Positions 1,174 to 60,828 of a DNA stretch of 64,000 nucleotides are shown here, piece by piece. Numbering within the stretch: position 1 is the stretch's first letter; the number at the start of each line of letters is the position of its first letter. The notes below the pieces were generated by a model. The model was given only the letters and a program-made list of their open reading frames with translations, ran no database searches and was not told the origin of the DNA. The stretch covers positions 11,667,498 to 11,731,497 of the forward strand of contig OZ024790.1 of the NCBI GenBank assembly GCA_964017065.1, in the 5' to 3' direction. The DNA comes from Haliclona indistincta (taxonomy: Eukaryota > Porifera > Demospongiae > Haplosclerida > Chalinidae). The translations under genes were made by a program, and so were the position numbers.

Positions 1174-1879
1174 CATTACTTTAGTGCCATATGGCCTGCT
1201 CTCCCATGTAGTCGATCCAGTGCATGATTTACACAAACTTTCATATCTGTAGGAATTGGACCTGGCATGGACATTTACTGTACAGCACTTGTTGAAGAGA
1301 ACTATAATGAAGATAAAAGTAAAATTATAACAGGGATCCCACTCACCGGCCGTAGTATGTTTGAACAAACCACAGGCTAGTCAAAAGGACGTACCAGCAG
1401 GTACTCAGTATAATAAAAAAATTATAGTAGGAGAAAAGACTATGCACTGCACCAAAAAAATAAAATGAACAAACTGTACATCAGAATTTTAATTTTATTC
1501 AATGTATAATTTTTAGATTGCAGTTACGAAATATTTGGCAAAAGTCTAACCTTAGCAAAAGCATGAAAATCTCAACATAATACTCCAAAGGCTTAACATT
1601 AATTTTGCAAAAGTTAATTAGTGTGACAAATCTCTAAAGTGCGACAAATCTCATAATTATTACCAGCAAAGTCTGAAAAATTTCAAATGTCTACACTACA
1701 AACAAATGATTCGATCTGGATAGTTTCTATGTCGACCAAACTCTGGCGTGTAAATGACAAAGTCTAGAAAACTGTTTCGCGCGCAAAAATGTGCGCCAAC
1801 ATTTCGTGGACAACTTTATTTTTACGTATCATTGCTGATGAAGCTGCTGTTTAACTTCAGAATCACGCTGCATGTTCAT
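1174..1879. other. non-coding stretch, nothing recognised
   Basis: AT-rich sequence with no long open frame. A 66-codon minus-strand frame at 1168-1368 has no recognisable content. No inverted or tandem structure stands out. Confidence 0.5.
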
Positions 1880-3560: not shown

Positions 3561-4082
3561 ACTCAGCACTGCGTTTAGTCTATGACAACCAACTTGCAAA
3601 CAGGTATCATGGCATATATGTTTGCAAGTTGGTATAACACAACTGGAAAACAAACTCTAGTCATTATCTCAATGAATAATAATTATAAGGTAATGAATAA
3701 TTATAATTAAACACTGCATGTGTGGAAAGTATTCCAGGAATACATTGAATTCATGACAATCCATGGATCATCCATAGAAGAGTATAGAATCTTGTCAATT
3801 CAATATTATTATGTTGCAAAAAACAATAATATTATTATAAAACTTTGCTTATCCTATAATAATAAAATTTTCAGTCATAATTAAAAATATATACATTATA
3901 AAATAATTATTATTATTGTAAAAAGTATAATAATTATAATTAATAACTAATAATAAACAAGGTTCTCTTTGCTATTTCATTACTTTCACCAGCCTCACTC
4001 TCATCTCTGCTTCGTTTTCTGATTTACATTTCGCTGGGTGACTCAAGTAGTTCAGTGTACTTGTCTAATTTCAAACCAAATA
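3561..4082. other. AT-rich spacer with a small inverted repeat
   Basis: At 3581-3636, accaacttgcaaac pairs with gtttgcaagttggt about 30 bases on. The rest, 3650-3960, is very rich in AAT/ATT runs with no open frame. Confidence 0.5.
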
Positions 4083-4222
4083 TAAGTTAGACGCCGAGGC
4101 CATGGGATCTACGCTGTATAGAAACCCGAGAGGAAGCCATATAGAACCCGAGCGCGAAGGTTCTATGGCAACTCGAGGGTTTCTATACCGCGTAGATCCC
4201 ATTGGCCGAGGCGTCTAACTTA
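4083..4222. mobile_element. hairpin element, about 140 bp
   Basis: taagttagacgccgaggcc at the left end pairs with ggccgaggcgtctaactta-type sequence at the right end, and pairing continues inward over about 55 bases (gggatctacg..., gtatagaaaccc...). The loop is a few tens of bases. It is a near-complete palindrome without coding content, most simply a MITE. Confidence 0.7.
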
Positions 4223-4896
4223 TTTAGAGTATAGCCACGAGTAACTACTATTGGTCGAGCACCGGACCACCGGTATCTAAGCCGTAAGCAAAAGAAACGC
4301 ATTCTCATGCAAGTTCTCGTTCGTGGCATGATATTAAGCGACCAGCTCTTCGACTGGGCGTACGACAACGACGAACTGTTACTGACAACCATTAATGACG
4401 GAGTACGACAGTAATTCTGCAACTTTACTCTACGCCGCTACTCATACGCCTTCAGTAGACTCCGCTGCTGCTACCACGCGCGTACCATGTACCACTCGAG
4501 AAGAAACCGTTCCTAGCTACTCCGCCCTCGACCCAACCTCTATCGGCAACGCCCAGTTTGGCGACCCGTCGTGAAGACTCGTGCTGCGCAAAGACGGAGG
4601 CTGCAAGTAGAGCAAGCCAGACAGATTGTAATTCTAAGGAAGACACTCCAAGACCGTCTATGATAGTCATTCTTCAGATAGTGATAGTCTACTGAGCGAC
4701 TGTGTCAACTCGTAGACTATCACTAGTATTCATCACTTGTTGTTTCCATTGCTTGTATATATTATACACAATGCTATGTAAAATATACTCTCCCGCTCAA
4801 ATCAACCAATGAAACGCCTGGTGTCTATGAAAAACAGCTTGGTTCTACGTGAAATAGACCCTCTGATTGGTCAATATCACTATACTATACTCTAAA
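4223..4896. mobile_element. possible TIR element, 12-bp ends
   Basis: tttagagtatag at 4223-4234 is matched by ctatactctaaa at 4885-4896. The enclosed 650 bases are GC-richer than the flanks and hold unrecognised open frames on the minus strand (4183-4422, 4452-4670). The terminal repeat is short, so this could be chance. Confidence 0.25.
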
Positions 4897-5096
4897 CCTA
4901 TTTAGAGTCAAACCAGATGTTTTTCTCTCATCAGGGTCCTCTGGTACTGGCGCCTTTATGAATATGTATCGCTAAAAAATTAATATGAAAAAATCAATTA
5001 TTGACCTCATTATAATGTGTCAAGTATCGTATTGTACATGATAGACAATGGATTTGAAATGTACGCGAACTTTAAGTTGCTGATGTATAGATAGAT

Positions 5097-5779
5097 GTTA
5101 CGACCCGATTCGCAACCTGACCCGTTTCGAAGCCGGCCGCCGGTTTCGAAGCCGGTTAACCCGATTTACAACCACATAACTCAGTTGACCCGGTTTAAAA
5201 CCGAACGTTTCAATAATGCTCCAGGGTGCCCACCTGCATGCTAGATCGACAGAACCTACTTAGGAGTGCTGTCGTGGTTATAGCTCACTGCAGTTCAGCG
5301 CAGCAAGACTGGAAAGTGTCCACGGAGGCGATTTAGAGCATCATGTGCTACTACAGTCATCGACAGGAGCGTCGTTGTAAGTCGGGATTAGCAGCGCAGC
5401 ACAGCAAGCCTACCTGCTAAATTGACAGGAATGCCGTTACGAGTGGTTCAGCAACGCAGCGCAGCAAGAAATGTTGTGTGCATGCACTGAACAGTTGTTT
5501 AACAATCAAACTGCACTAAAATTCAGAGGAACATGTCACAGCTTCTTCTTCAAACGTGACTCCTGTACATGGAAGCAAATTTATAAAGAACAGTATGATT
5601 GCGATGCAATGTATATGGACACTCAGAGTACATGTTATGTTTAGTAGTCAAAGTCTATTGATTACACGCGCGCACTTAGCATTATGCACGCTTTGAATAT
5701 GGCGCACAGCTAGCTAACCCGCTTCGAAACCGGTCGACCGGCTTCGAAGTGGGTCAAAGGTTGTGAATCGGGTCGTAAC
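5097..5779. mobile_element. non-autonomous TIR element with 6-bp target duplication
   Basis: The left end begins gttacgacccgattc; the right end is its inverse, gaatcgggtcgtaac. Pairing continues inward for about 60 bases through the ttcgaag/ccggt motifs. The flanks repeat atagat directly (5091-5096 and 5780-5785). The interior is non-coding and holds three degenerate copies of a 'cagcgcagcaag' block (5290-5470). The superfamily cannot be assigned from a 6-bp duplication alone. Confidence 0.85.
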
Positions 5780-5785
5780 ATAGAT

Positions 5786-6360
5786 ATCTTGAGTGCAAGG
5801 ACATCTATTTCCATAGCAACCAAAAACTTTGTTGACATAGAGACTAATGTATAACTACGCACCCAAAGGTAGTAGAGCCCAGAGAGCTAGCCAGAGGCAG
5901 TATAAATTTATAATCCCTGTGAGTATCCTTTGATAAACCCCATATGTTGTGATTGTTAACCAATTTTAGTTTTTATAGTGACTTAGAGTGAGTGTCCATT
6001 TGACCTCTATAGCTGACTAATCAGATTACAGAATTGACTTAGGTCACTTTAGTTGGTTTAACTAATAATGTGACTGGGATCCAGAAACCAAATGATTTCA
6101 GGGCAGTTGAAATCACATTATTATCATGATGAGCTCTGGCATAACCATGCAGGTAAGTGATGTCTTATTGTCATGACAATTACTACTAGAACAAAGATTA
6201 ATTTTTGACTTAGTTGCTTTTGCAAATGGCTCATATTAGGAAGCTGGATCAAGCAAAGCTAATCTTAACACTGAATTGTGAGTATAGTTGATGAGCTCCC
6301 TGTGCCATAACATGTACTGTAAAGGTTTAAAGAAGAATTATCGATGTTTACAACACCAAA
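5786..6360. other. non-coding stretch, nothing recognised
   Basis: No open frame of note, no inverted or tandem repeats found. Confidence 0.5.
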
Positions 6361-7809
6361 AATGGTGATAGTTAAAACACGTAACGTGCGGAACGGAACA
6401 GCACATAAAGTGACTTAATGTACGCACATGCACAGCGAAAACGCACTCTGTTTCCAAGCTGGAAACGCCCTTGTACACGAACGTGCACAAGTCGTACTCG
6501 AGTTTGTAAACGCTACGTGAACAAATTGCGCTCGACCAAGAAACGGACTGAATTTCCGAGCCTGGTGTGCATGCTTGTCCACCAGGAGTTTACAACCAGG
6601 ACACTGTCTTGAGCACTAACATGCGCAAGTGGTACACTCTTTGTAAACTGGTGGCAAGCGTTTCCAAAATCGTACTATGCAATCGTTTTTTTGCCTACCT
6701 AGCGTTGTAAATTTCTGAGTTTTAAATAATTAAATTATAATCACAAAATTTAAACAATCACAAAAAATCAGTTTTGTACTTCAGATTCCGCTGGGCCGAA
6801 GATCAGATCGAGTGGACTGCTAGCAGATTCATTCTCCAAGTCTGGAGAACTGTCCAATCAGTTTACTTGGCTCTGCATAAATATCATAAGGATTATAGAA
6901 AGATACAGAGCATGAACAGTGTCTTTACCGTGTTAGTATTCAAACCTTTGAATAATTATTATAGTCACCTACATTTAATAGTAACAGTGATTAGTATTGA
7001 TATCACACTTACTAATGCAAGGTCCAAGGGAGCACTGTATGTGAACATACTAGATTCTACAATAAAGTAACAATAGTTAGAGACATAAGCAGATTCCTCA
7101 CCGATTTTAGTCGTCACGATCTTCACTCTGCAATCATAAAGATACTTTACATATGAGATACCGACAGTAACTCACCTGAGAATTGAGGCAAGATAATAAC
7201 TCAGTCACATAAGTCAAGTCAGAAGCAGTTAGTACACTATTCACCTGAAATATATTAGGAAGACAAGTAAGAGACAGATAACCAACAAGTTTAAAACGTA
7301 CATAACGTTTGATGACGTAGGCAGGTAGTTTACTAACTCAGCTCATGATTCGATCTGTAATAAACATAGGGACGAGTGAATACGAATAACAATACCACCC
7401 AAAATAACTTAAGTATCCAATAGAAAATTTGAACTAAGGACCTCCGTGGTCAATACTCATGAGCTGATCCTCCATTCGATCGATTTAGCGGGTATATTCT
7501 GCTGTCTCAGTGTCTGTTCTGAGCTAAGGAGACAATGATTTCAGCCTAGCCTGCCAAAACCGAACACACATGCAAGGTGGTACGCATGCGTTAGAAGGCG
7601 TGGTTAGCTAACTAAGAACCACGCCCATAGCTACCAAAGTTGGTGGTTCGATCTACTGTACATTCTGTATTCCAGAGGAGGCTATAAGCTTAGTCTGCAT
7701 TGCAAATGTGAGTTTACCAATAATTATGCCATGTCATTATAATGAACAAGTGATAGTGTTCCTCATTGTTCCTCAGAGTGTGCAGCATCGATCATTACTG
7801 TGATTATAA

Positions 7810-9862: not shown

Positions 9863-12800
9863 ATGTCGACATCTTCTCATGATGCTCATTCTTCTTCAAG
9901 TTCTGCTACTGTGTCGACGTCTAGGGGGAGCAAAAAGCGTCAGTATCTTTACTGTGGTCACTGCGAGAAGCACGTCAGTAAAACTGTATTCTATCTACAT
10001 CGTCGACTGTACTTTGATCAAAAATGCATGAGTTGGTCGAAGAAACGCTTGTTCCTGGTCAATGATGATCCCGAAACTCCAGAGTCAATGCCAATTGACG
10101 ATGATGAAGAAAATTATATTACTGCGCAAGATGAGAACGATGAGATGCTTGAAGAAGGTATCATAATGACATATAGCATAGTAATGTTATCGTTATTATT
10201 TTTAATAAATAATAGACCTGATGCATACAGCACCGATATCAAGTGAAGATGACAATTCGTCAAGTGATGATAGTGATTCAGAGGTTAGTGGCTGATTTTA
10301 ACAACAATAATGTATATCTAGCTATTGCCTTGGTACATACATATATCGTGCAAACATATATACTGATGGATTTGCAGATATTGAACCTGTACTGATTTTC
10401 ACAACCAAATTTGTCCATTGTATGTTTATTCAGACTACCGAGGTTTAGCTGTACTTGAGATTATGAGCTCTATTTTTGGATCAATCTGAGTCACATTAAT
10501 GTACATGTATATACTATACAGGTTGATGAGATACTAGCAGATGAGCCAGAAATTCTCTTTGGTGATGACAATGATTGGCTAGAAATGGTTGACACTCCTG
10601 ATGATTGCTCTGTCTCATCAGATAGCTCGCCATCTACTGCAGTCCCCACGGCTACTCCACCTGAAGCACGACTAATGAGGCTTTACGTCTTTCTTATGTT
10701 CATGTACCAGACCATTTTTCGTGTTTCTGATGCTGCTCTCAGTGTCCTTTTTTCTATCTTTTCTACCTTCCTCAAGAGCCTTGGTCAATATTTGCAGTCT
10801 GATAAATTGATCCAATTTGCATCCAAGATTCCATCCTCTATTTACACTGCAAGGAAAATTAGTGGTCGATCCTGCAATGACAATTTTCGTAAGTATGTCG
10901 TTTGTCGAAAATGTTCCAAACTGTACCAATTTGACAAATGCAAGATTACACTACCGGATAAATCTATTACTTCCAGATTGTGTGAGCATGTTCAATTTAA
11001 GAAGCATGTACAATCTAATCATCGACGTCCTTGCGGAACGGAATTGATGAGGAAAGTTCAGTTGCCTAGTGGGCGCTTGGGGCTTATGCCACATCTTGTG
11101 TATTGCTACAGAAGCATCATCAAATCCCTCCAAGAATTGATATTGCGAAAAGGGTTTGTAGAGAAGTGTAATGACTGGAAAAAGGGCACGACTGGTGAAG
11201 GTTATAGAGATGTATTTGATGGTAGTATCTGGAAGGAATTCCAGACGGTCAATGGGAGGCCGTTTTTGTCATTGCCGTACAATTTTGGACTTCATTTGAA
11301 CGTAGACTGGTTTAAGCCATACAAACACACCCAGCATTCTGAAGGTGTAATGTATGTTACTGTACTCAATCTTCCAAGGTCTGATCGCTTCTTACAAGAG
11401 AATGTAATTATCCTTGGAGTGATACCGGGTCCTAAAGAGCCCAAGAAAAATATTAACTCTTTTTTGAAACCTTTTGTTAACGATCTAAAGGATTTGTGGG
11501 ATGGCACAATAATGAATACTCTAGCACAAGGAAGTGTGTTTGTTCGTGCAGCATTATTGTGTGTGGGTTGTGATATACCAGCCGCTAGAAAAGTCTGTGG
11601 TTTTGTAGGGCACGGGGCATATCGTGGCTGTTCTAAATGCATGTCCGCATTTCCTACTGCAAAATTTGGAGAAAAAGCAGATCGATCTAATTTTAACAGG
11701 AGCAATTGGCATCCAAGAAATTCAAGTGAGCACAAGTCTATTGCTTTTGAGTACAAGCAATGTAACACACGAGCGGATCAGAAAAAAATAGAAAGAGAGA
11801 CTGGAATTCGATTTTCGATACTTGTAGAGTTGCCGTATTTTGATGCTCCGCGAATGTGTATTATAGATCCTATGCATAATTTACTGCTTGGAACAGCGAA
11901 GCACATGCTAGACCTGTGGAAAGGTAAAGACGTTTTGACAGACAATGATTTTGATGCAATACAATCATGTGTGGATTCCTTTGTTTGTCCTAGTGATCTT
12001 GGTCGTTTGCCATACAAAATATCTTCTGGGTTTAGCGGGTTTACTGCTGAACAATGGAAAAACTGGACTTGTTTTTTTTCTTTGGTTGCGTTGAAAGACG
12101 TTTTACCCAGGCAGCATTTTCAGTGTTGGCAACTTTATGTTAAGGCTTGCTTTTTACTATGTAGAAGAGAGATATCAGAAGCATTATTGAAGAACGCCGA
12201 TGAGCTATTGAATGACTTTTGTAATAAATTTGTAACATTATATGGCTGGGAACATTGCACAATGAACATGCATTTGCATGGGCATTTGGCTGATTGTATT
12301 AATGATTATGGCCCTGTTTATTCCTTCTGGCTATTTAGCTATGAAAGAATGAATGGAATACTTGGTTCATACCATACAAACAATCATCTGATTTCGATTC
12401 AACTAATGCAAAGGTTCTTAGATCATAAAACATTTTCTGTTCATAATTTGCCGGAAGAATACCAGGCTGATTATCTACCTCTGATGAGTAAATTAAGTTA
12501 CAACCAAGGATCTCTTGCACAGTCAACATTTGAGAACCCAGATTGTCGCTCCGATGCAACTATAGCTATGCCACCTGTTACGCAAAGAGCCTTATCGAAA
12601 ACTGACATAGCCAGCTTAAAAGAGTGGACCAGTTCTTGTGTTCCTTTTTCTGGAGAAATACTAATACTTTACTTGCACAGTCAAAATGTTAGAATCAATG
12701 CCACCGTCGTCGGCAGTCGATACAAATCGTCGGTTGTGCTCGCATCTAAATCCTCAGGCGATGTCTGTCTTGCAAATGTGCTGTACTTTGCCCAAGTGTT

Positions 12801-13056
12801 CTGTAAAGTTGCTGACGGCAAAGTAGCTGAGTGGGTGGCAGCAGTTAAGTGGTACGAAACACATCAATGCCGAGTGTGGTTTGGATATCCTGTAGAAGTT
12901 TGGGGCTCAATGCAAGAACCTGGATATTCGCTAATTCCTTTGACTGCTATTAAGTCTAGAGTTATTCACAAGAAGATGTTGGTAAACTTTGGCCGCATAA
13001 TTGGCGAACACTCTGTTGTAGTAGCTGTACCATTAGAAAATAAAAGTTTATTCTAA
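9863..13056 (+). CDS. Tnp2/CACTA (EnSpm)-type transposase, 965 aa, intact
   Basis: Exons 9863-10157, 10216-10283 and 10522-13056 join in frame through GT-AG introns and end at TAA. The N-terminus is Ser-rich, then has a small Cys/His finger (CGHCEKHVSKTVFYLHRR, from about residue 31), then an acidic Ser/Asp linker. The third exon contains the Transposase_21-like core: a Cys-rich segment (VVCRKCSKLYQFDKC), the NFGLHLNVDWF and NLPRSDRF blocks, the metal-binding GHGAYRGCSKCM, and IDPMHNLLLGTAKHML near residue 570. In this family the last carries a catalytic Asp. The C-terminal 150 residues are less typical. Family proteins cut DNA at the element's ends for cut-and-paste transposition. There is no stop or frameshift, so it may be active. 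An upstream in-frame ATG at 9818 exists; I prefer 9863, where the Ser-rich start begins. Confidence 0.85.
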
Positions 13057-19712: not shown

Positions 19713-19843
19713 AACACATACAAATACTATCACAACAGACAAGCATAGGACACATACAAATACTATCACAACAGACAAGCATAGGACACATACAAATACT
19801 ATCACAACAGACAAGCATAGGACACATACAAATACTATCACAA
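19713..19843 (-). repeat. 36-bp tandem repeat, about 3.6 units
   Basis: Unit: acacatacaaatactatcac followed by aacagacaagcatagg. Because 36 is a multiple of three, open frames run through it on the minus strand. A parallel array with variant units (aggacccataaaaatactgt) sits at 49511-49640 and a shorter one at about 59330-59430 in the sibling blocks. Confidence 0.9.
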
Positions 19844-20882
19844 CGTGCAGACCAAACACATTTTCTGATCCATGTACCAAACCATTGTGTGGGCGTAAGA
19901 GACTACTATGGCTCATAGCTCATGGCATGCATGGTTCTGGTTTCCATGGCATAAATTCTCCTCAAACATTGCCTCAACCAACAAATTATGCTTGTAATTT
20001 ACTTGTCAAGAACCATTCAGTTCTGTGCTGGACTGTGTTTTAGGTTCAGACTTTCTCGAGATTATAGATAGCAATTTGTATTTGAGTTGGTTTTGTCAAT
20101 GGTTCATTTGGTTTTCTTTTTGTGTACTGTAGTTAAGGTGGCGGCGGTCCTTATGCGTCGATGCACCATGAATATAATTATCACTCAGGAATGCTGACAA
20201 TGTAAATGCTGCCAAATTGTACGATCAGCATCGCTGGGTAAGCAGTTTCAGCATGACACACGGTCGTCCAAGCTGATAGTCTCTGGCACTCCAGAGAATG
20301 CTATCCTATCGCTAAATGAAAAGCTTTGTAGTTACACTGTTATAGCACGTATTAAAGTGGTCCGCCATTTTCAGTTTACTATACTATCACTCTAATTTTG
20401 CCTGCTGTCACCGAGTTGCACAGTACTTGGCGTCGAACATAGCACTCAAGAGAAGGAATAGCATTAAGTGTCTTTATTGCTGGCCTTCACTGCGCTCTAT
20501 CGTATGAGTGCTAGAGCACTCTAGCACAGCTCTCTAGTTTTTTCACTCCTAATTTTAACATGGACTGTTTAAAACTTGACTTATGTATCCCACATGTTTA
20601 ACTTTGGTTGGGCTGATAGAATGATGACTAAGACTAACATGCTTATAGTGTTTTGCTTGTTACAGTGTACCGATCATGTCGATCACTTATTATTTCCTAT
20701 TCATTATTTTTGTATCTACTTATGTGCAGCTTGATATTGTCAACATTGCTATCTCTTGATCTCTTTCCTTCTCTTCTCATTGATTTGACACAAGTAGCAC
20801 AGAAATCGTACTCATTATCAACATAACAATGTAGTTATTGTACTGTACAGTAGTGTAATCAATGGTTAATATTATCATCACT

Positions 20883-24535: not shown

Positions 24536-25650
24536 ATGCTAGCATTTACATGTGTGCTAGCATTTACATGTGTGCTAGCGTTCACATGTGTGCTAGCGTT
24601 CACATGTGTGCTAGCGTTTACATGTGTGCTAGCGTTTACATGTGTGCTAGCGTTCACATGTGTGCTAGCGTTTACATGTGTGCTAGCGTTCACATGTGTG
24701 CTAGCGTTTACATGTGTGCTAGCGTTTACATGTGTGCTAGCGTTTACATGTGTGTTAGCGTTCACATGTGTGCTAGCGTTTACATGTGTGCTAGCGTTCA
24801 CATGTGTGTTAGCATTTACATGTGTGCTAGCATTCACATGTGTGCTAGCATTTACATGTGTGCTAGCGTTTACATGTGTGCTAGCGTTTACATGTGTGCT
24901 AGCGTTTACATGTGTGCTAGCGTTCACATGTGTGCTAGCGTTTACATGTGTGCTAGCGTTCACATGTGTGCTAGCGTTTACATGTGTGCTAGCGTTTACA
25001 TGTGTGCTAGCGTTCACATGTGTGCTAGCGTTTACATGTGAGCTAGCGTTTACATGTGAGCTAGCGTTCACATGTGTGCTAGCGTTTACATGTGTGCTAG
25101 CGTTCACATGTGTGCTAGCGTTCACATGTGTGCTAGCGTTCACATGTGTGCTAGCGTTTACATGTGTGCTAGCGTTCACACATGTGCTAGCGTTCACATG
25201 TGTGCTAGCGTTTACATGTGTGCTAGCGTTCACACGTGTGCTAGCGTTCACATGTGTGCTAGCGTTTACATGTGTGCTAGCGTTCACATGTGTGCTAGCA
25301 TTTACATGTGTGCTAGCGTTTACATGTGTGCTAGCGTTTACATGTGTGCTAGCGTTCACATGTGTGCTAGCGTTCACACGTGTGCTAGCGTTTACACGTG
25401 TGCTAGCGTTTACATGTGTGCTAGCGTTCACATGTGTGCTAGCGTTCACATGTGTGCTAGCGTTCACTTGTGTGCTAGCGTTCACATGTGTGCTAGCGTT
25501 TACATGTGTGCTACAATCACCTGTGTGCTAGCAATCACTTGTGTGCTAGCAATCACCTGTGTGCTAGCAATCACTTGTGTGGTAGCATTCACATGTGTGC
25601 TAGTGTTTAAATGTGTGCTAGCATTTACATTTGTGCTAGCGCTAGTATTT
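24536..25650. repeat. 18-bp satellite array, about 62 units
   Basis: The unit is acatgtgtgctagcgtt followed by t or c. It varies mainly at that last position and at gcg/gca. The last six or so units (25510-25650) are more diverged (aatcacctgtg, gtgtttaa). Because 18 is divisible by three, open frames of 200-350 codons run through on both strands; these are by-products, not genes. Each unit contains two 6-bp palindromes (acatgt, gctagc) and a 10-bp alternating purine-pyrimidine run. Confidence 0.98.
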
Positions 25651-35758: not shown

Positions 35759-35926
35759 CCCAGTCACACATGCATTTCATATACACACCACTCCTGGTGC
35801 ACTCCTCAAGGATGAGTAACTAATAACTTTAACTTTTCTACTCTAATTTTTGTTGGAGTGGATAAAAACTCTGTCTCTTTCTGCATAATACACGTGTAGG
35901 TTATATCCCGCGTTAGAGGGATATAC

Positions 35927-36052
35927 GACCCGTTATATCCCGCGGGAAAGGGCGCGCTCAAGTGAAGTCAAGGAAGCGCCGAGGGCAAAGCCCGAGGAGC
36001 TTCCGAGACTTCACGAGAGCGCTAGCCCTTTCCCGCGGGATATAACAGGTCG
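35927..36052. repeat. imperfect hairpin, GC-rich
   Basis: gacccgttatatcccgcggg pairs with cccgcgggatataacaggtc, and gctcaagtgaagtc with gacttcacgagagc. A partial third ttatatcccgcg motif precedes it at about 35901. Probably a small TIR element. Confidence 0.65.
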
Positions 36053-36429
36053 TACTTCCCGCCAACATGTGATATAACTTACTTGTACCATGCTAAATTT
36101 AGCGTTTATGACTTCACTCGCTAAAAAACGCTAAAATTATTGGTCGCTAATAATACAGGTTTTAAGGTAACAAGAGATTGAGTACCGTATACTAATTTTA
36201 GAGGCTGACTGTTATTTAAGCAAGTTTGATTTGAGGATCTATGTGTATATCTCGAGTTATGATCCGCTCAGAGTCTACATAGTCAAGGATGGTCTGGTCA
36301 GATTCGCAACATGCAAATACTCACATAGTAACAAGAGACTGAGTACGTTATACTAATTTTAGCAGGTGGCTGTTATTTAATGAGATTCATGCTCGTTAGC
36401 AAACATTCATGCTCGTTAGCAAACATTTG

Positions 36430-37037
36430 TTAGGGTGCAGACCCTAACAACCATTAAATTATTCAGGAATGTACAAGTTGGACATTATTACACACCACAA
36501 ATGATATTCACTGTTTATACAAGCACGTTAACAATACTAATAAGTGACAGTAGCCAGGCGAGATCGCGAACAATACATTCCTCAATAAAACTCTGTCTGT
36601 GGTCTTCAGAATAGACCCAAACTTAGATATATGACTATTAGCGACCAGATAAAGACCTTAACGTAGAGTTTTTTTTAATAAACACACTCTGAGTAGAAAA
36701 ACCACGAGGTAAGCAGCTCATAATCGCACTTTCAAGCACAATACACGAAAAAGCTCTACGTTACTGCCTTCGCCTTGTTGAAGTACGTATATATCCCAAA
36801 TCTGAAGTTCTACTGCCTGAGTGAACGAAAGTTTTATTAGCCTAAGCGTTGTATCTAGCCGTGCCCGTCACGTTTCCGTCTGGCACTTTCAGCGCTCATA
36901 GTTTGCAATGTATACAGCCTTCGCCAGTCTTGTAGCATAGGTCTTTGGTTTCTTGGAATATCAGCAGTAGTTTCTGAGATACAGTCCCCTAGCAACCAGC
37001 CAAAAATACATGCGTGGGCGTGACACTGCACCCTTAA
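36430..37037. mobile_element. TIR element in the left arm of the giant palindrome
   Basis: ttagggtgcag at 36430-36440 pairs with ctgcacccttaa at 37026-37037. The right arm lacks this sequence at the mirrored position and holds a different element there (42615-42953). The right border is ttaa, which suggests a TTAA-targeting (piggyBac-like) element. The interior is non-coding. Confidence 0.7.
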
Positions 37038-37257
37038 GGTGGCGGGATACCATTTTAATGAGATTCATGACTTTGCAAGTGGCTATTTCTTTTTAAGCCA
37101 AGTCTATCTGTGCAGACGGAGTTGCAGTGTGCGCTTTGTTTGTCTATAGATAGGCATCGATAATAGCAAGTTTCAGCCACGTAGTGTTCGCCATCACGGA
37201 ACGACGAGCTCGCCTGTGAAGACTAAACACGATCGAGTTTTTACAATTTTTCTTTAG

Positions 37258-37503
37258 TTGTGTGAAACGTACGAAGCTAAAACTGCTCATGCAAGCTCAT
37301 CTTCCATTCGTGGAGGAGCCTGTGTATCGATTTCGCCGAGCAATGCTCGTACGCGATACTGCAGCTACGTACTGCCAGACAGTACAGAGTACGCAGCTGT
37401 AGTATCGCGTGCGAGCATTGCTCGGCGAAATCGATACACAGGCTCCTCCACGAATGGAAGATGAGCTTGCATGAGCAGTTTTAGCTTCGTACGTTTCACA
37501 CAA
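37258..37503. mobile_element. hairpin MITE in the left arm, absent from the right arm
   Basis: ttgtgtgaaacgtacgaagc is mirrored by gcttcgtacgtttcacacaa, with pairing over about 110 bases per arm. At the mirrored place in the right arm (about 42390-42400) the sequence is uninterrupted. tag lies on each side (37255-37257, 37504-37506), but the empty site does not show a clean duplication. The facing 68- and 72-codon frames are two sides of the hairpin. Confidence 0.85.
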
Positions 37504-38436
37504 TAGTACAGGCAAATTAGAGTTTGACCTCAGACTAATTGCAACACAAACATTTTCAACTGTTTTCTACACAGAAAAATGTCCTCTATAACATACTAAA
37601 AGTCCTAAGGAATCCCGTGAGGGGAAGTATCAAAAATTGTATGTTTTTTAAACCAACATCATTAATAATTCATGAGTTGAGTATTTTGACATAGTCTATA
37701 ATAACTCCGGTTTTTTTATAGCTATAAGCCTCCTAGAAGTTTTTAAACATTCAATAGGTCAAGTAAAAAGTATTTCTTTGATAATTTTTGAACAATACAT
37801 GTATAATTGTGACAAAGTCCTTTGTCTTTGTGTAGCCTGTGGTAAGAGTACTAAGTAGGTGTTAACTGTCTTTGGTTAGTTGTGTAGTTTTGTGTTATTG
37901 TATCTTGGTCCTTAGTGGTGTGTCTGTTAGTTTTGTATTGCTGATTGGTCTGTTTGTGAGTTTTCGTATCTGAGTTGTTAGTATTTAAGTGTGTCTTCTA
38001 AGGAATTTTATCAATCTAAGTCGCGGAAAACTTGAAATCGCGACAATAATGTTCTCTGTCAATCTATTTAATCCATACTATCTTCATCATCATGGTCTGA
38101 GTTTGTGCAACCAGATCCCTTGCAGTTGCCACATGCAAGAGAGAACATTATATTATGCAGTTTACAAGTACACCTCATGCTGCTACAATCAGTCTGGCAG
38201 TTAAAACCTGATTACATGTATAGTAGTTCTTCTGGTGCTGGAGGCAAGTCAGTGAGTATTGGGTTTCTTCATTTTCTTTCCTCTACTGGAGAAAGATCAT
38301 CCGCGGTGCGCTTTACACTGCTGTATCTGAAGGTATATACACGGAGGCTGGAATAATTCTTTGCCGCTGATGTAGGTGATAAAGTCTGAGACTGGTACAT
38401 TTTGGTAGCGATCTGACTTGAACTTTTTGAGCTTTC

Positions 38437-40366
38437 TGGTAGTGCAATAGTGTGTATTAGGAGAGTAGTGTAACAATGCAACAGAGTCACTGGTAGTGCA
38501 ATAGTGTGTATTAGGAGATAGTGTAGCAATGGAATAGAGTCACTGGTAGTGCAATAGTGTATCAGGAGATAGTGTAACAATGGAATAGAGTCACTGGTAG
38601 TGCAATAGTGTGTATTAGGAGATAGTGTAACAATGCAACAGAGTCACTGGTAGTGCAACAGTGTGTATTAGTAGGAGATAGTGTAACAATGCAACAGAGT
38701 CACTGGTAGTACAATAGTGTGTATCAGGAGATAGTGTAACAATGGAACAGAGTCACTGGTAGTGCAATAGTGTGTACTAGGAGATAGTGGAGCAATGCAA
38801 CAGAGTCATTAACCCTCGGCGCATGCGCGAGGGTTACGGTACTTGCTTTGTCGTTCGGTCGGTCTGTCTGTCTGTCTCTTCTGCTACAGAGATCAGCGAT
38901 CGCTTCTACGCGTCAACTAAGGTATGAACAGGCTAAGCACGACCATGGCTTGCAATGTGACTCGTGGATTTTGCTAAAGTGCTTTCGTTCTTGAGTTATG
39001 GCTGGCTCACCTTGCATGACGGCCATCTTAGACTTCTCTGACAACAAAGGCGCCCATAGTTGACTACCTAGGTACTTGTAGATTCCATCTAAACAGCAGG
39101 ACAGCTCTGGGGGTGCGTAGACATCTCAAGAAAAAGCCTATCAAAGCCAAGAGCAATGGCTACCTACTCAGTGTTCACGGTCACGCCCACTTGACACACC
39201 TTGTCTCGATTGAATTGTGGTCAGCACTTTGCTGTCTTCTGGTTACATGTAGCAGTGCAGTTTCAATAGCAAGCAGGTTGGCTTCAGCTGCAAAGCTCCT
39301 TCTGCAAACCATAACTAAGGTGCTAACTCTACAATGTGCAACACGCCGAGGGTTTCGTGAAATCTGTTCATTGGTAGTGCAATAGTGTGTATTAGTAGGA
39401 GATAGTGGAGCAATGCAACAGAGTCACTGGTAGTGCAATAGTGTATTAGGAGATAGTGGAACAATGCAACAGAGTCACTGGTAGTGCAATAGTGTGTATT
39501 AGGAGATAGTGTAACAATGCAACAGAGTCACTGGTAGTGCAATAGTGTATTAGGAGATAGTGTAACAATGCAACAGAGTCACTGGTAGTGCAACAGTGTG
39601 TATTAGGAGATAGTGTAACAATGCAACAGAGTCACTGGTAGTGCAATAGTGTATCAGGAGATAGTGTAACAATGGAACAGAGTCACTGGTAGTGCAATAG
39701 TGTGTATTAGGAGATAGTGTAACAATGCAACAGAGTCACTGGTAGTGCAACAGTGTGTATTAGTAGGAGATAGTGTAACAATGCAACAGAGTCACTGGTA
39801 GTACAATAGTGTGTATCAGGAGATAGTGGAACAATGCAACAGAGTCATTGGTAGTGCAATAGTGTGTACTAGGAGATAGTGGAGCAATGCAACAGAGTCA
39901 TTGGTAGTGCAATAGTGTGTATTAGTAGGAGATAGTGGAGCAATGCAACAGAGTCACTGGTAGTGCAATAGTGTATTAGGAGATAGTGGAACAATGCAAC
40001 AGAGTCACTGGTAGTGCAATAGTGTGTATTAGGAGATAGTGTAACAATGCAACAGAGTCACTGGTAGTGCAATAGTGTATTAGGAGATAGTGTAACAATG
40101 CAACAGAGTCACTGGTAGTGCAACAGTGTGTATTAGGAGATAGTGTAACAATGCAACAGAGTCACTGGTAGTGCAATAGTGTGTATTAGGAGATAGTGTA
40201 ACAATGCAACAGAGTCACTGGTAGTGCAATAGTGTATTAGGAGATAGTGGAACAATGCAACAAAGTCACTGGTAGTGCAATAGTGTGTATTAGTAGGAGA
40301 TAGTGTAACTATGGAACAGAGTCACTGGTAGTGCAATAGTGTGTATTAGGAGATAGTGTAACAATG
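38437..40366 (+). repeat. 53-bp tandem array, left side
   Basis: Unit: cactggtagtgcaatagtgt, then gtattaggagatagtgtaac, then aatgcaacagagt. Variant units of 51 and 56 bp occur (loss of gt, gain of gta). About 25 copies, interrupted by an insertion at 38811-39367. Some multi-unit blocks recur in the same order (39380-39590 and 39900-40130), showing block-wise expansion. Confidence 0.95.
38811..39367. mobile_element. 557-bp insertion in the 53-bp array with 5-bp target duplication
   Basis: The array is interrupted after cagagtcatt and resumes at tcattggtagtg, so tcatt is duplicated (38806-38810, 39368-39372). The insert starts aaccctcggcgcatgcgcga and has cgccgagggtt near its right end, followed by 13 extra bases. 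It carries a tctg/gtcg-rich stretch near 38850 and a 90-codon frame at 39113-39385 that I do not recognise. The mirrored arm has no such insert. Confidence 0.8.
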
Positions 40367-41450
40367 CATTGTTACACTATCTCCTAATACACACTATTGC
40401 ACTACCAGTGACTCTGTTCCATTCTTACACTACTCTCCTAATACACACTATTGCACTACCAGTGACTCTGTACCATTCTTATACTACTCTCCTAATACAC
40501 ACTATTGCACTACCAGTGACTCTTTGTTACACTACTCTCCTAGTACACACTATTGCACTACCAGTGACTCTTTGTTACACTACTCTCCTAGTACACACTA
40601 TTGCACTACCAGTAACTCTGTTGCATTGTTCCACTATCTCCTGATACACACTATTGTACTACCAGTGACTCTGTTGCATTGTTACACTATCTCCTACTAA
40701 TACACACTGTTGCACTACCAGTGACTCTGTTGCATTGCTCCACTATCTCCTAGTACACACTATCGTACTACCAGTGACTCTGTTGCATTGTTACACTATC
40801 TCCTACTAATACACACTATTGCACTACCAGTGACTCTGTACCATTCTTATACTACTCTCCTAATACACACTATTGCACTACCAGTGACTCTTTGTTACAC
40901 TACTCTCCTAGTACACACTATTGCACTACCAGTGACTCTTTGTTACACTACTCTCCTAGTACACACTATTGCACTACCAGTAACTCTGTTGCATTGTTCC
41001 ACTATCTCCTGATACACACTATTGTACTACCAGTGACTCTGTACCATTCTTATACTACTCTCCTAATACACACTATTGCACTACCAGTGACTCTTTGTTA
41101 CACTACTCTCCTAGTACACACTATTGCACTACCAGTGACTCTTTGTTACACTACTCTCCTAGTACACACTATTGCACTACCAGTAACTCTGTTGCATTGT
41201 TCCACTATCTCCTGATACACACTATTGTACTACCAGTGACTCTGTTGCATTGTTACACTATCTCCTACTAATACACACTGTTGCACTACCAGTGACTCTG
41301 TTGCATTGCTCCACTATCTCCTAGTACACACTATCGTACTACCAGTGACTCTGTTCCATTGTTACACTATCTCCTGATACGCTATTGCACTACCAGTGAC
41401 TCTGTTGCATTGTTACACTATCTCCTAATACACACTATTGCACTACCAGA
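40367..41450 (-). repeat. 53-bp tandem array, right side (inverted)
   Basis: The same unit as the left array in reverse orientation, about 20 copies, starting exactly at the axis. A three-unit block (ending gttccactatctcctgat) is duplicated at 40840-41020 and 41040-41225. Confidence 0.95.
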
Positions 41451-42614
41451 AAGCTCAAAAAGTTCAAGTCAGATCGCTACCAAAATGTACCAGTCTCAGA
41501 CTTTATCACCTACATCAGCGGCAAAGAATTATTCCAGCCTCCGTGTATATACCTTCAGATACAGCAGTGTAAAGCGCACCGCGGATGATCTTTCTCTAGT
41601 AGAGGAAAGAAAATGAAGAAACCCAATACTCACTGACTTGCCTCCAGCACCAGAAGAACTACTATACATGTAATCAGGTTTTAACTGCCAGACTGATTGT
41701 AGCAGCATGAGGTGTACTTGTAAACTGCATAATATAATGTTCTCTCTTGCATGTGGCAACTGCAAGGGATCTGGTTGTACAAACTCAGACCATGATGATG
41801 AAGATAGTATGGATTAAACAGATTGACAGAGAACATTATTGTCACGATTTCAAGTTTTCCGCGACTTAGATTGATAAAATTCCTTAGAACACACACTTAA
41901 ATACTAACAACTCAGATACGAAAACTCACAAACAGACCAATCAGCAATACAAAACTAACAGACACACCACTAAAGACCAAGATACAATAACACAAAACTA
42001 CACAACTAACCAAAGACAGTTAACACCTACTTAGTACTCTTACCACAGGCTACACAAAGACAAAGGACTTTGTCACAATTATACATGTATTGTTCAATAA
42101 TTATCAAAGAAATACTTTTTACTTGACCTATTGAATGTTTAAAAACTTCTAGGAGGCTTATAGCTATAAAAAAACCGGAGTTATTATAGACTATGTCAAA
42201 ATACTCAACTCATGAATTATTAATGATGATGATTTAAAAAACATTCAAGTTTTGATACTTCCCCTCACGGGATTGCTTAGGACTTTTAGTATGTTATAGA
42301 GGACATTTTTCTGTGTAGGAAACAGTTGAAAATTTTTGTGTTGCAATTAGTCTGAAGTTGACCCATTTTTTTCCATAAATTGCCTGTACTACAACTAAGG
42401 AAAAATTGTAAAAACTCGATCGTGTTTAGTCCTCACAGGCGAGCTCGTCGTTCCGTGATGGCGAACACTACGTGGCTGAAACTTGCTATTATCGATGCCT
42501 ATCTATAGACAAACAAAGCGCACACTGCAACTCCGTCTGCACAGATAGACTTGGCTTAAAAAGAAATAGCCACTTGCAAAGTCATGAATCTCATTAAAAT
42601 GGTATCCCGCCACC

Positions 42615-42953
42615 TTAATGCTATGCATTTATGGGGCGAGCCTGAGCTTTTACAGATCGCGTCAGATCAGATCGATAATACAACACGTCTCTCTCTCCGG
42701 CAGACTTACCTGGCGTTTGCTCTTGTACGAGACAAGAGTACTTCTACAAAACGACGACGAGCAGCAGAGTCACCCGATCAACGAGAGACGACTGGAGCGA
42801 CAAAAAGAATACCATTGAGAATACCGGAGATGAAAGAGAGCAACAGAGCAAACGCCAGGTAAGTCTGCCGGAGAGAGAGACGTGTTGTATTATCGATCTG
42901 ATCTGACGCGATCTGTAAAAGCTCAGGCTCGCCCCATAAATGCATAGCATTAA
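42615..42953. mobile_element. hairpin element in the right arm, flanked by ttaa
   Basis: ttaatgctatgcatttatgg is mirrored by ccataaatgcatagcattaa. The arms pair over about 130 bases (gatcgcgtcagatcagatcg, cacgtctctctctccggc), with a short central loop encoding nothing recognisable. The ttaa on both sides fits a TTAA target duplication. The left arm carries a different insert at the mirrored TTAA. Confidence 0.85.
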
Positions 42954-43296
42954 CTAGTTACTATGGTTTCCCAGTAACAATGTTTGCTAACGAGCAGGAA
43001 TCTCATTAAATAACAGCCACTTGCTAAAATTAGTATAAGGTACTCAATCTCTTGTTACTATGTGAGTATTTGCATGTTGCGAATCTGACCAGACCATCCT
43101 TGACTATGTAGACTCTGAGCGGGTCATAACTCGAGATATACACATAGATCCTCAAATCAAACTTGCTTAAATAACAGCCACCCTCTAAAATTAGTATACG
43201 GTACTCAATCTCTTGTTACCTTAAAAAACCAGTATTATTAGCGACCAATAATTTTAGCGTTTTTTAGCGAGTGAAGTCATAAACGCTAAATTTAGC

Positions 43297-43600
43297 AAGC
43301 GCTAAAATTTAACTTTAATGAGATTCATTCTACATAGCTGTGGTTTAGCAGTAATAATGACTATGAATCTCATTATATAACGGCCAAACCGTAAATGTCT
43401 TTCATCGCAAAACGCTAAATTAAGTGGTCGCTAATAATACTGGTTTAAAGGTACTCAGTCTCTTGTTATTATGTGAGTATTTGCATGTTGCGAATCTGAC
43501 CAGACCATCCTAGAATATGTAGACCCTGAGTGGGTTATAACTTGAGATATAAACATAGATCCTCAAATCAAACTTGCTACCAGTAATCAGGAATGGATTA
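43297..43600. repeat. direct repeat of the palindrome's outer end
   Basis: 43420-43590 repeats 43020-43170 (tcgctaataatactggttt, atgtgagtatttgcatgttg, ctgaccagaccatcc). The left side has a parallel duplication (36165-36290 and 36330-36360). The terminal segment therefore exists in several direct and inverted copies. Confidence 0.8.
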
Positions 43601-48923: not shown

Positions 48924-51136
48924 TTTTCTTTTCTCCATGAGCCCAGACCAGTATACAGTAGTTGTCAGCTCTGGTGGTACAGGGCTGTGTGTGATGGTAT
49001 AATAATGATGAAGCTACACATGTAGTGAGGCTTACTAGTGCAGTGGAGTAGCTTTCAGTTGAGAGAGTGTGTCCAGTGACTAGCTGACTGGTCTCTACAC
49101 TATACTGCTCAGCTTGTACTGGTTTACTGTACTCCATTAGTGATTATAGTTTAGTTGGTCCACTAATGACATTAGTGTAGAGATTAGTTCAATAATATAC
49201 TGTACTCATCTTATCTGCTCAACTCTGGTCTTTACTGCTATAATGCATAGTCCAGGATCCTTTTATACCCACTTCCACAACAACTCAACTCCATCCACAT
49301 ACCATGTTCAGGAAATGTAGACTCATGTCATGTTAGCTAATCAGTGTGTTTACACTAGATTGACTTAGGCACCCAGGTCTTCAAACGCCCAGTGTTCACA
49401 AACTTGACACAAAGTCATCACAAGTATTGAAAATCTTTACCATGCCAGACAATACAACTTACACTATCTGTCTGGAACACATTATTCCTTAGCAAGGCTA
49501 ACCTGAGAACACATACAAGTACTATCACAACAGACAAGCTTAGGACCCATAAAAATACTGTCACAACAGACAAGCTTAGGACCCATAAAAATACTGTCAC
49601 AACAGACAAGCTTAGGACCCATAAAAATACTATGCACAACATACCAAACACATTTGCTGCTACCAAACCATTGTGTGGGCGTAATTTTTACTGCAAGACA
49701 CAGTTCAAATTCCAATCTAAATACAAGAGATTCCGCTACTCTTTATACATTCTGCTAATCTAGAGTAGAGATTCCGCTACTCTAAATACAAGAGATTCCG
49801 CTACTCTTTTCCCTATAACGCAATAATAGGTAATAGGGAAAACACCACTAGCACCTCATGCATCAAACACATTTGCTGCTACCAAACCATTGTGTGGGCG
49901 TAAGAGACTATACTATGGCTCATAGATCATGGCAGGGTTTCGGTTTCCATGGCATAATTCTCCTCAAACATTGCAAATTATGCTTGAAATGTACATGTCA
50001 AGAACCATTCAGTTCTGTGCTGGACTGTGTTTTAGGTTCAGACTTTATTGAGATTATAGATAGCAATTTGTATTTGAGTTGGTTTTTTCAATGGTTCATT
50101 TGGTTTTCTTTGTTGTGTAGTTACTTTTAAGGTGACGGCCATTGTGCCCACTCACAGTCAATGCACTATGAATATAATTTCCACTGAATACTGACAATGT
50201 AAATGCGACTGTGAATCAGTCATGTTTTGGTGTGCCAAATTATACGATCAGCATTGCTGGGTAAGCAGTTTCAGCATGACAAACAGTCGTCCAAGCTGAT
50301 AGTCTCTGGCACTCCAGAGAATGCCAACCTATCGGTAAATGATGAGCTTTGTAGTTACACTGTTACAGCACGTCTGAAAAGTAGTCTGCCATTTTCAGTT
50401 TACTATACTATTACTCCAGTTTTGCCTGCTGTCACCTAGTTGCACAGTACTTGGCGTTGAACATAGCACTCAAGAGAAGGAATGGCATTAAGTGTCTTTA
50501 TAGCTGGCCTTCACAGCGCTCTAAATGTGAGTGCTATAGTGCTCTAGCACAGTTCTCTAGTTTTTTCACTCCTAATTTTAACATGGACTGTTTTAAACTT
50601 GACTTGTGTATCACACATGTTTAACTTTGGTTGGCTTGATAGAATGACTAAGACTAACATGCTTATAGTGTTTTGTTTGTTACAGTGTACCGATCATGTC
50701 GATCACTTATTATTTCATATTGTTGTATTTACTTATGTGCTGCTTGGTATAATAACATTGTCAACATTGGTATCTCTTTCCTTCTCTTCTCATTGATTTG
50801 ACACAAGTAGCACAAAAATCATACTCATTATCAACATAACAATGTAGTTATTGTACTGTAGTGTAATCAATGGTTAATTATTATAATCATTTGTCATTGT
50901 TTGTTAGTATCAGTGAGTGTGATCTTCTTTTCTCCATGAGCCCAGACCAGTATACAGTAGTTGTCAGCTCTGGTGGTACAGGGCTGTGTGTGATGGTATA
51001 ATAATGGTGAAGCTACACATGTAGTGAGGCTTACTAGTGCAGTGGAGTAGCTTTCAGTTGAGAGAGTATGTCCAGTGACTAGCTGACTGGTCTCTACACT
51101 ATACTGCTCAGCTTGTACTGGTTTACTGTACTCCAT
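48924..51136. repeat. composite block L - internal - L (copy 3)
   Basis: A short L at 48924-49145, internal sequence 49146-50892, and a short L at 50893-51136. Its right flank (51140-51430) equals the right flank of the single L at 17128-17380. It contains a 36-bp tandem array (49511-49640) and a local insertion bounded by a 41-bp direct repeat (49643-49903). Confidence 0.8.
49643..49903. other. insertion flanked by a 41-bp direct repeat
   Basis: caaacacatttgctgctacc...gtgtgggcgtaa occurs at both ends, where the sibling blocks have it once. The insert of about 178 bp has three agagattccgctactct motifs. The flanking repeat is too long for ordinary transposition and suggests repair-associated duplication. 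Confidence 0.8.
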
Positions 51137-51818: not shown

Positions 51819-52217
51819 TTATTGCTCATTATCATCGTCATCACTGTCCGTATCATTTCCAATGTTACTGTCTTCATCATTTGCACATTCTATGTCACAT
51901 GAGCAAAGTTCTGTGCATGGTAGATTATTCTTCCTGCATGAACATCTTAGTGTAGAGCAATCAGTTTTACACCTGCATCTAACTAGCTCGATGATGGACT
52001 GTGCTGCAGGAAGAACCTTTGTAGTGAGTGGCAAAATTTGACCATCTGTGTTCTTGTAGTATCCAAAATTTAGTGGTTCAAAAGGTTGTTGCTGCATTAT
52101 GGTGGCTTGGAACCATACCCGGCTTTGTAACCGCACGCGCTTGATATGTTCCTCAAGTGCACCAAGCGTAGACGGTAATTTGTTGCTTTCAGCTAGTTTT
52201 TGCAGAACAGATGCCAT
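51819..52217 (-). CDS. CXC-type cysteine-rich protein fragment, last exon
   Basis: A 132-codon frame with a splice-acceptor-like ttaag directly before its ATG. Around residues 60-108 is a cysteine-rich block of the tesmin/TSO1-like pattern (ELVRCRCKTDCSTLRCSCRK, CTELCSCDIEC), then an acidic tail of Asp/Glu. The helical part before it (residues 1-50) and the cysteine block match a type often found as the last exon of large, dispersed, transposon-associated proteins in invertebrates (recalled, not searched). The upstream exons are missing; an Ig-like fragment abuts it. It is therefore probably a fragment, not a working gene. It would bind zinc and perhaps DNA. Confidence 0.45.
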   Translation of the reverse strand: MASVLQKLAESNKLPSTLGALEEHIKRVRLQSRVWFQATIMQQQPFEPLNFGYYKNTDGQILPLTTKVLPAAQSIIELVRCRCKTDCSTLRCSCRKNNLPCTELCSCDIECANDEDSNIGNDTDSDDDDNEQ

Positions 52218-52229
52218 CTTAAATCAGGT

Positions 52230-59072: not shown

Positions 59073-60828
59073 TTTAATGCATAGTGCCAGGCTCTTTTAT
59101 ACTCACTTCCACAACAATTCTATTTCCACCCACACATACCATGTTCAGGAAATGTACACACATGTCATGTTAGCTAATCAGTGTGTTTACACTAGATTGA
59201 CTTATTATGTATATGCTACACAGTCTTCTCCTTGTGTTCACAAACTTGACACAAAGTCATCACAGCGAATCATTACCAGACAATACAACTTACAGGCTAT
59301 CTGGAACACATATATCCTCAGACAAGAATCCAATGCTACACAAACAAATACTATCACAACAGACCAGCATATGACACATTCAAATACTATCACAACAGAC
59401 CAGAGGACACATACAAATACTATCACAACATACCAAACACATTTGCTGCTACCAAACCATTGTGTGGGCGTATGAGACTACTATGGCTCATAGCTCATGG
59501 CATGCATGGTTCTGGTTTCCATGGCATACATTCTCCTCAAACATTGCCTCAACCAACAAATTATGCTTGTAATTTACTTGTCAAGAACTGTTCAGTTCTG
59601 TGCTGGTCTGTGGTTTAGGTTCAGACTTTCTTGAGATAATGGATAGCAATTTGTATTCCAGTTGGTTTTGTCACGGTTCATTTGGTTTTCTTTGCTGTGT
59701 AGTTACTTTTAAGGTGACGGCCATTGTGCCCACACACAGTCAATGCACTATGAATAATATAATTTCCACTGAATACTGACAATGTAAATGTGACCGTGAA
59801 TCAGTCATGTTTTGGTGCGCCAAATTGTACGATCAGCATTGCTGGGTAAGCAGTTTCAGCATGACACACAGTCGTCCATACTGATAGTCTCTGGCACCCT
59901 AGAGAATGCTAACCTATTGGTAAATGATACACTGTTACAGCACGTCTGAAAAGTGTTCCGCCATTTACAGTTTACTATCACTCCAGTTTTGCCTGCTGTC
60001 ACCGAGTTGCACAGTACTTGGCATTGAACATAGCACACAAGAGAAGGAATAGCATTAAATAGCATTAAGTGTCTTTATTGCTGGCCTTCACAGCGCTCTA
60101 ACATGTGAGTGCTAGAGTGCTCCAGCACAACTCTTTAGTTTTTTCACTCCTAATTTTAACATGGACTGTTTAAAACTTGACTTGTGTATCACTCATGTTT
60201 AACTTTAGTTGGCTTGATAGAACGACTAAGACTAACATGCTTACAGTGGTTTGTTTGTTGCAGTGTATCGATCATGTCGATCACTTATTTGTTGTATCTA
60301 CTTATGTGTAGCTTGGTATAATAGAATATTGTCAACATTGCTATCTCTTGATCTCTCTTTCCTTCTCTTCTCATTGATTTTACATACTCATTATCAGCAT
60401 ATCAATATAGTTATTGTATTGTAGTTTTTTGGGTTTTTTGAGCTTGTAAATGACTTAATAATATTAAAAGAATAATAGTAATAAAAGTTAGATTAATCCA
60501 CAGATAGCCTCCCCTCGACAATAGCAAGTTCGAGGGAAGCGTACAGTAATTAATGGTTAATATCTAATCACTAGTCATTGTTTGTTAGTATCAGTGTGTG
60601 TAATCTTCTTTTCTCCATGAGCCCAGACCAGTATACAGTAGTTGTCAGCTCTGGTGGTACAGGGCTGTGTGTGATGGTATAATAATGATGAAGCTACACA
60701 TGTAGTGAGGCTTACTAGTGCAGTGGAGTAGCTTTCAGTTGAGAGAGTGTGTCCAGTGACTAGCTGACTGGTCTCTACACTATACTGCTCAGCTTGTACT
60801 GGTTTACTGTACTCCATTACTGAATGAG

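Follow-up and report, generated by a model that had tools for sequence, protein, structure and literature searches.

A 64-kb stretch of the 144-Mb genome of the sponge Haliclona indistincta (contig OZ024790.1, one of 46; hereafter the window) holds a 7.2-kb region that is a nest of inverted-repeat elements, with a foldback transposon at its core inside a palindromic miniature inverted-repeat transposable element (MITE). This core, which we call the C element (37504-42391), is very probably a non-autonomous foldback DNA transposon that inserted into the MITE, descended from an AcademX-like parent, inherited its axis and has undergone arm-to-arm correction. It is ordinary in kind, and its history is unusually clear: one genome preserves relatives of the parent gene together with both an intermediate and an array-bearing stage. 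Foldback elements of this kind are already known, and the novel part is a regularity in the spacing of the tips.

A preliminary description had treated the region as a single continuous palindrome. Comparison of the window with itself rules this out, resolving only nested inverted blocks that extend outward to 36091/43297 with one-sided stretches between them. The main block pairs are 36091-36407/42979-43297 (96.9% identity), 37034-37261/42391-42618 (99.1%) and 37527-38795/41095-42358 (95.5% when gaps in the alignment are included). The stretches without a partner are X (36433-37033), H (37258-37503), M (about 38811-39367) and R (42619-42949).

A transposon copy inside a MITE

37501..37503: target-site duplication (TSD) CAA, left, 3 bp
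37504..42391, + strand: C element, foldback transposon copy, 4888 bp including one nested insertion, with ends TAGTACAGG...CCTGTACTA
37504..38436, + strand: left arm, with the type a, short-spaced tip (tip gap 25)
41449..42391, - strand: right arm, with the type b, long-spaced tip (tip gap 35)
42392..42394: TSD CAA, right, 3 bp

Aligned against the reverse complement of the right arm, as the preliminary description had proposed, the left arm is 98.4% identical over 910 columns. Matches to the arms form at least 24 clusters genome-wide; 16 of the 24 contain both orientations, and in all 16 these stand in one inward order. We fetched 20 loci around such matches (loci are designated by L and a number). 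The window and 11 other loci yielded 12 copies that start and end with TAGTACAGGCA, a set restricted to copies with both tips exactly matched. Matching 3-bp TSDs, whose sequence varies among copies, flank 10 of the 12; duplications of TA or of 4 bp were also considered, but across the copies a length of 3 bp fits best. When the C element and one CAA are removed, the rejoined MITE, 694 bp long, aligns without gaps to L038 and L043 over its full length (694 of 694 columns, 98.4%). No full-length match to it was found at the five other MITE loci tested (L037, L040, L041, L042 and L044).

Long terminal arms in inverted orientation, internal tandem repeats, a TSD and an uninterrupted site together identify a foldback element. 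The earlier suggestion of such an element built on tandem repeats was right, as this is a transposon copy with a TSD, tips and internal arrays. Its longest open reading frame spans 107 amino acids and its gene remnants carry stops, making it non-autonomous and without an intact transposase; it would have moved by cut-and-paste with the help of a partner protein. Two observations weigh against this reading: L023 and L053 (2 of the 12 copies) have no matching TSDs, and an intact element with exact TAGTACAGG tips was not identified in the genome, so that the mobilizing partner is putative.

Assembly error had been named as the main alternative to a genuine palindrome. Because runs of N fall in or beside copies, the C-element family looks hard to assemble: 200-N runs occur in 7 of the 20 fetched loci, and in five of these (L011, L013, L014, L018 and L019) they lie in or beside the element. 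A foldback read or a collapsed repeat, introduced during library preparation or assembly, might on that account be suspected. The window, however, is free of N, its arms differ by 1.6%, its tips are unlike, its arrays are unequal, insertion M is present on one side only, and its flanks rejoin to a known MITE. Given these differences and the uninterrupted MITE elsewhere, we regard an artefact as most improbable.

A spacer-free axis shared among copies

38437..38808, + strand: 53-bp array, left outer part (Tandem Repeats Finder, TRF)
39368..40366, + strand: 53-bp array, left inner part, reaching the axis (TRF)
40366..40367: axis, where GTGTAACAATG meets CATTGTTACAC, with 56 exact pairs; junction at 6 genome places
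40367..41448, - strand: 53-bp array, right part (TRF, blastn)

The reversal of the array at 40366/40367, without a loop, is exactly as first described. Perfect pairing, which had been put at about 60 bases per side, holds at the axis for 56 bases and fails beyond them, where the array halves lose register.

We searched the genome for the head-to-head junction, allowing 0-6 central bases, and recovered it at six places, with none for a reversed control. All six are C-element copies: the window, L010, L011, L012, L014 and L015, the last five having one extra central base relative to the window. Because every junction locus is a copy of the element, the junction most likely arose once, in an ancestor, and spread by transposition, which would make this a spacer-free axis carried to several loci. 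A palindrome formed at this site by local inverted duplication, through a template switch or an inversion within the tandem array, had also been proposed, and a spacer-free axis inside such an array is the expected product of a template switch. Five other loci nevertheless have this junction, with one added central base. Both tips and a matching pair of 3-bp TSDs are present in three of them (L010, L011 and L015); L012 and L014 are each missing one tip. A local origin is therefore very unlikely, and a template switch may instead have occurred once, in the ancestor. Weighing against a single inherited axis are the altered axes of L009 and L016. One array half is missing from L013 and L017, and array length is unequal between sides and among copies. 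The preliminary description had further held the palindrome to be either very young or maintained by gene conversion; conversion fits the arm data presented below, and the axis was most likely inherited from an ancestor.

Contig C4 also carries the 53-bp unit, in 16 array clusters located from 4.1 to 7.4 Mb. Four of these arrays were fetched (L045-L048); in each the units are head to tail, the arm has no match in any of them, and since all share one flank, on one side, a single duplicated sequence appears to have given rise to the four. No Pfam match was obtained for the translated sequence next to the C4 arrays, making the flank at most a putative exon. Two substitutions and a 3-base insertion separate the consensus unit of the foldback copies (127 units) from that of C4 (92 units). 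Mean identity among units is 90.0% within the foldback set, 92.7% within the C4 set and 88.4% between them, and neither set is nested in the other. Because the older copies L018, L021, L022 and L024 carry no array, capture of the array by the element is slightly favoured over seeding of C4 by the element; counting against capture, the C4 flanks are 92-97% alike and thus hardly older than the element.

Origin of the arms

38098..38433, - strand: decayed coding remnant in the left arm, matching L050 protein residues 1363-1472 (tblastn, 47% identity, E 5e-11)
41452..41787, + strand: decayed coding remnant in the right arm, matching the same L050 residues 1363-1472 (tblastn, 46% identity, E 5e-10)

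Both arms retain traces of a gene. The remnants match the C-terminal region of the 1498-residue L050 protein, and a genome search with a remnant-derived query recovered intact frames, among them one of 1062 residues (59% identity), one of 1498 (56%) and one of 1071 (40%). L050 is a 5331-bp element with TSD CAG/CAG; when its flanks are rejoined, they align over all 157 columns with a paralogous site that lacks the insertion. Two further gene-bearing relatives have matching TSDs (AAG and TAT), bringing the total to three of the four checked. Of 40 scored matches to the L050 5′ tip, most are to a tips of foldback copies and two are to b tips. In the array-less older copies L018, L021, L022 and L024, the arms hold residues from about 1284-1339 to 1432-1472, and the loop between them encodes residues about 1181-1258.

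A plausible history begins with a parent that lost most of its gene and had its 3′ end duplicated in inverted orientation, so that one side kept the 5′ tip and the opposite side the 3′ tip. The older copies would represent an intermediate stage, their loop still coding for residues about 1198-1258. In the younger subfamily, the centre would then have been replaced by the head-to-head 53-bp array, and the axis junction multiplied through transposition.

As to the nature of the parent, structure comparison assigned the homologue P0015 a FEN1/EXO1/XPG-like fold; the VIA-align matches listed all fall on one domain (model residues 407-746). A single-sequence structure model was poor (pLDDT 36) and was left unused. 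We predict that the parent encoded one large protein containing a nuclease fold of the FEN/XPG type, and AcademX is the lineage that fits it best. AcademX transposons have a DDE-type transposase core related to that of Academ and, beside the transposase, a nuclease of the XPG type. In the portion of the AcademX report available to us, a nuclease and a TSD of 3-4 bp are described (PMC10045372), and a TSD of 3 or 4 bp is likewise found in 10 of 12 foldback copies and three of four gene-bearing relatives.

Several points weigh against this parentage. The longest intact frames are just 40-59% identical in protein to the C-element remnants; L049, one of the four gene-bearing relatives, has no matching TSD (GAG/TTC); the sequence-profile match to a nuclease is marginal (EXO1, E 0.11); and the AcademX assignment is by description (nuclease, TSD). 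The parent could instead belong to another superfamily with a 3-bp TSD that independently gained a FEN-like nuclease. Comparison by description leaves room for such an origin, and Pfam yields a weak match to DUF6589 alone, in 9 of 20 homologues. We consider it unlikely, given that the combination of a nuclease with a 3-4 bp TSD is reported for AcademX in the accessible part of PMC10045372. Relatives of the transposon protein were absent from the viral and prokaryote contigs searched. Related proteins in other animals include ones from Dysidea, Porites and Littorina.

Elsewhere in the window, 51900-52220 (- strand) is a second, distant remnant, with 35% identity to the C-terminus of the same FEN-type transposon protein. 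In L020, an older foldback copy, an 1826-aa frame lying between the arms (1855-7335, - strand) was considered as an internal gene and rejected; by Pfam (Peptidase_A17 and others) it is a nested BEL/Pao-type retroelement.

Probable homogenization of the arms

The arms within a copy resemble each other more closely than arms drawn from different copies: in nine young copies, same-copy arms are 98.2% identical on average, whereas an a arm and a b arm taken from different copies average 96.6%, and the observed within-copy identity was reached by 0 of 20,000 shuffles. In a tree of 24 arms from 13 loci (L053 not included), 8 of the 11 two-armed copies have their arms as sister branches, with support of 100/97 for the window and only 95/79 for L009. 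Across 10 two-armed copies, 24 private states are common to both arms; mispaired controls share 0.36 on average and at most 2 (74 shuffles). Because same-copy arms are closer than arms of different copies, correction between arms fits, and gene conversion is probably the simplest cause of the likeness. The arms of one copy would correct each other with the outermost tips excluded. Against this stand the 85 private states restricted to one arm, the lack of any private state common to both arms in L010 and L012, and the failure of the arms of L010, L012 and the old copy L024 to pair in the tree.

Private states common to both arms would equally result if one arm were recopied by folding back during transposition or repair. 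Recopying would, however, need to halt before each tip, because tips and array lengths differ: the tips in 12 of 12 copies, and the array sides in the eight array-bearing copies with both halves. Partial tracts also fit conversion more simply, and we judge recopying doubtful, if still a competitor to gene conversion.

A regularity in tip spacing

37504..37609, + strand: left tip, TAGTACAG, 25 bp, AATTGCAAC, 54 bp, AAGTCCTAAG
42276..42391, - strand: right tip, TAGTACAG, 35 bp, AATTGCAAC, 54 bp, AAGTCCTAAG

Each tip carries three boxes, TAGTMCAG, AATTGCAAC and AAGTCCTAAG, and we define tip spacing as the distance from TAGTNCAG to the AATTGCAAC-like box. The first two boxes have 104 matches in the genome and none for a reversed control; 100 of the 104 entered the gap and pair counts. 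Gap sizes cluster at 25 (45 of 100) and 35 (33 of 100). All 24 inward-facing pairs within 12 kb are mixed, with one short and one long tip, and the gap is exactly 25 or 35 in 47 of the 48 paired tips, the remaining one being 33. This was reached by 0 of 100,000 shuffles, which ignore descent, and the pairs are not independent: 11 of the 24 are foldback copies already in the 12-copy set (12 if C9:140066-143429 is counted). L049 and a second C10 element add two mixed pairs.

The gap to the third box is similarly constant. A three-box scan of 24 loci, of which L024 yielded no tip, found it to be 54 bp in 32 of 35 tips (23 loci), the exceptions being L017 (47), L019 (121) and one L053 tip in which the box was not found. 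The two 54-bp stretches of L050 have 25 of 54 bases in common, and the 25-bp gaps of L050 and the C-element family have 14 of 25. Common descent accounts for two unlike tips, but does not easily explain constant lengths in diverged sequence. We therefore raise, tentatively, the possibility that transposons with a FEN-type nuclease (AcademX-type) follow a 25/35 tip rule, comparable in its working to the 12/23 rule of RAG and certain Transib elements, under which movement would need one short-spaced and one long-spaced tip; the tips would stay unlike because transposition required both. Foldback copies provide a natural test of such a rule, because their arms are homogenized yet their tips are unlike in all 12 full copies.

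Comparison with known systems

The tip arrangement recalls Transib and RAG, by analogy and without a claim of homology. In both cases two boxes are separated by two fixed spacers that differ by about one helical turn, with one of each per element. The C element differs in its spacers (25 and 35 in place of 12 and 23), in having a third box at 54 bp, in the boxes themselves, and in its 3-bp TSD, that of Transib and RAG being 5 bp. The accessible part of a review describes the 12/23 rule as having no known occurrence beyond RAG recombination and certain Transib elements, and gives spacers of 27/31 for amphioxus protoRAG (PMC8355894). The C-element tips point to a second group of transposons with unlike, turn-spaced ends, in which the origin and purpose of a 12/23-type rule might be tested outside RAG and Transib. 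Like AcademX, the parent group encodes a nuclease and has a 3-bp TSD; the C element differs in being a non-autonomous foldback element, and unequal tip spacing goes unmentioned in the portion of PMC10045372 available to us.

Among foldback elements, Tetris of Drosophila virilis, as described in the part of PMC4079207 accessible to us, is similar in its long inverted arms, internal tandem repeats, variable arrays and lack of a transposase. Its tandem repeat also occurs outside the element, and it is reported to seed satellite DNA (PMC4079207). Tetris has a TSD of 8-10 bp and is assigned to Mutator in that source, in contrast to the 3-bp TSD of the C element; the arm of the C element can, moreover, be recognized as the 3′ end of a FEN-nuclease transposon, copied in inverted orientation, and the six shared-junction copies of the element have no middle domain at the axis. 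We found no literature linking foldback elements with an Academ transposon, although our search covered subscription papers thinly.

Elements around the core and elsewhere in the window

36091..36407, + strand: outermost inverted block O, left; element borders uncertain
36433..37033, + strand: insertion X, GGGTGCA...TGCACCC, adjoining TTAA, with a 95.7% copy in L028
37038..37503, + strand: left part (B-H) of the palindromic MITE that has TTAA at its flanks and is interrupted by the C element
38811..39367, + strand: insertion M, a dispersed repeat within the left array; borders approximate
42392..42614, + strand: right part (B') of the split MITE
42619..42949: hairpin element R, between TTAA sites, with 109-bp arms that are 100% identical
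42979..43297, - strand: outermost inverted block O, right, pairing with left O

The MITE spans 37038-42614, with TTAA at 37034-37037 and 42615-42618, and its left arm, B, has at least 44 genome matches listed, many of them 100%. The repeat in M is matched in L013, L014, L021, L025, L026, L027 and L028. The outer end of O, GCTAAATTTAGC, for which the preliminary description had proposed a genome search, belongs to a dispersed repeat, with at least 75 matches to block O listed (40 of 85 candidates scored); among those listed, only the two in the window are complete, spanning the whole block. A 187-bp self-inverted hairpin (35896-36082) abuts O on the left.

Farther from the nest, a frame of 865 aa at 10459-13056 (+ strand) matches Pfam Transposase_21 (E 5.2e-18), and we take it to be a CACTA-type transposase. 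An array of 61 copies of an 18-bp unit at 24537-25641 is open in several frames on both strands, and similar tandem units of 33-36 bp occur at three places (19714-19844, 49512-49641 and 59338-59435).

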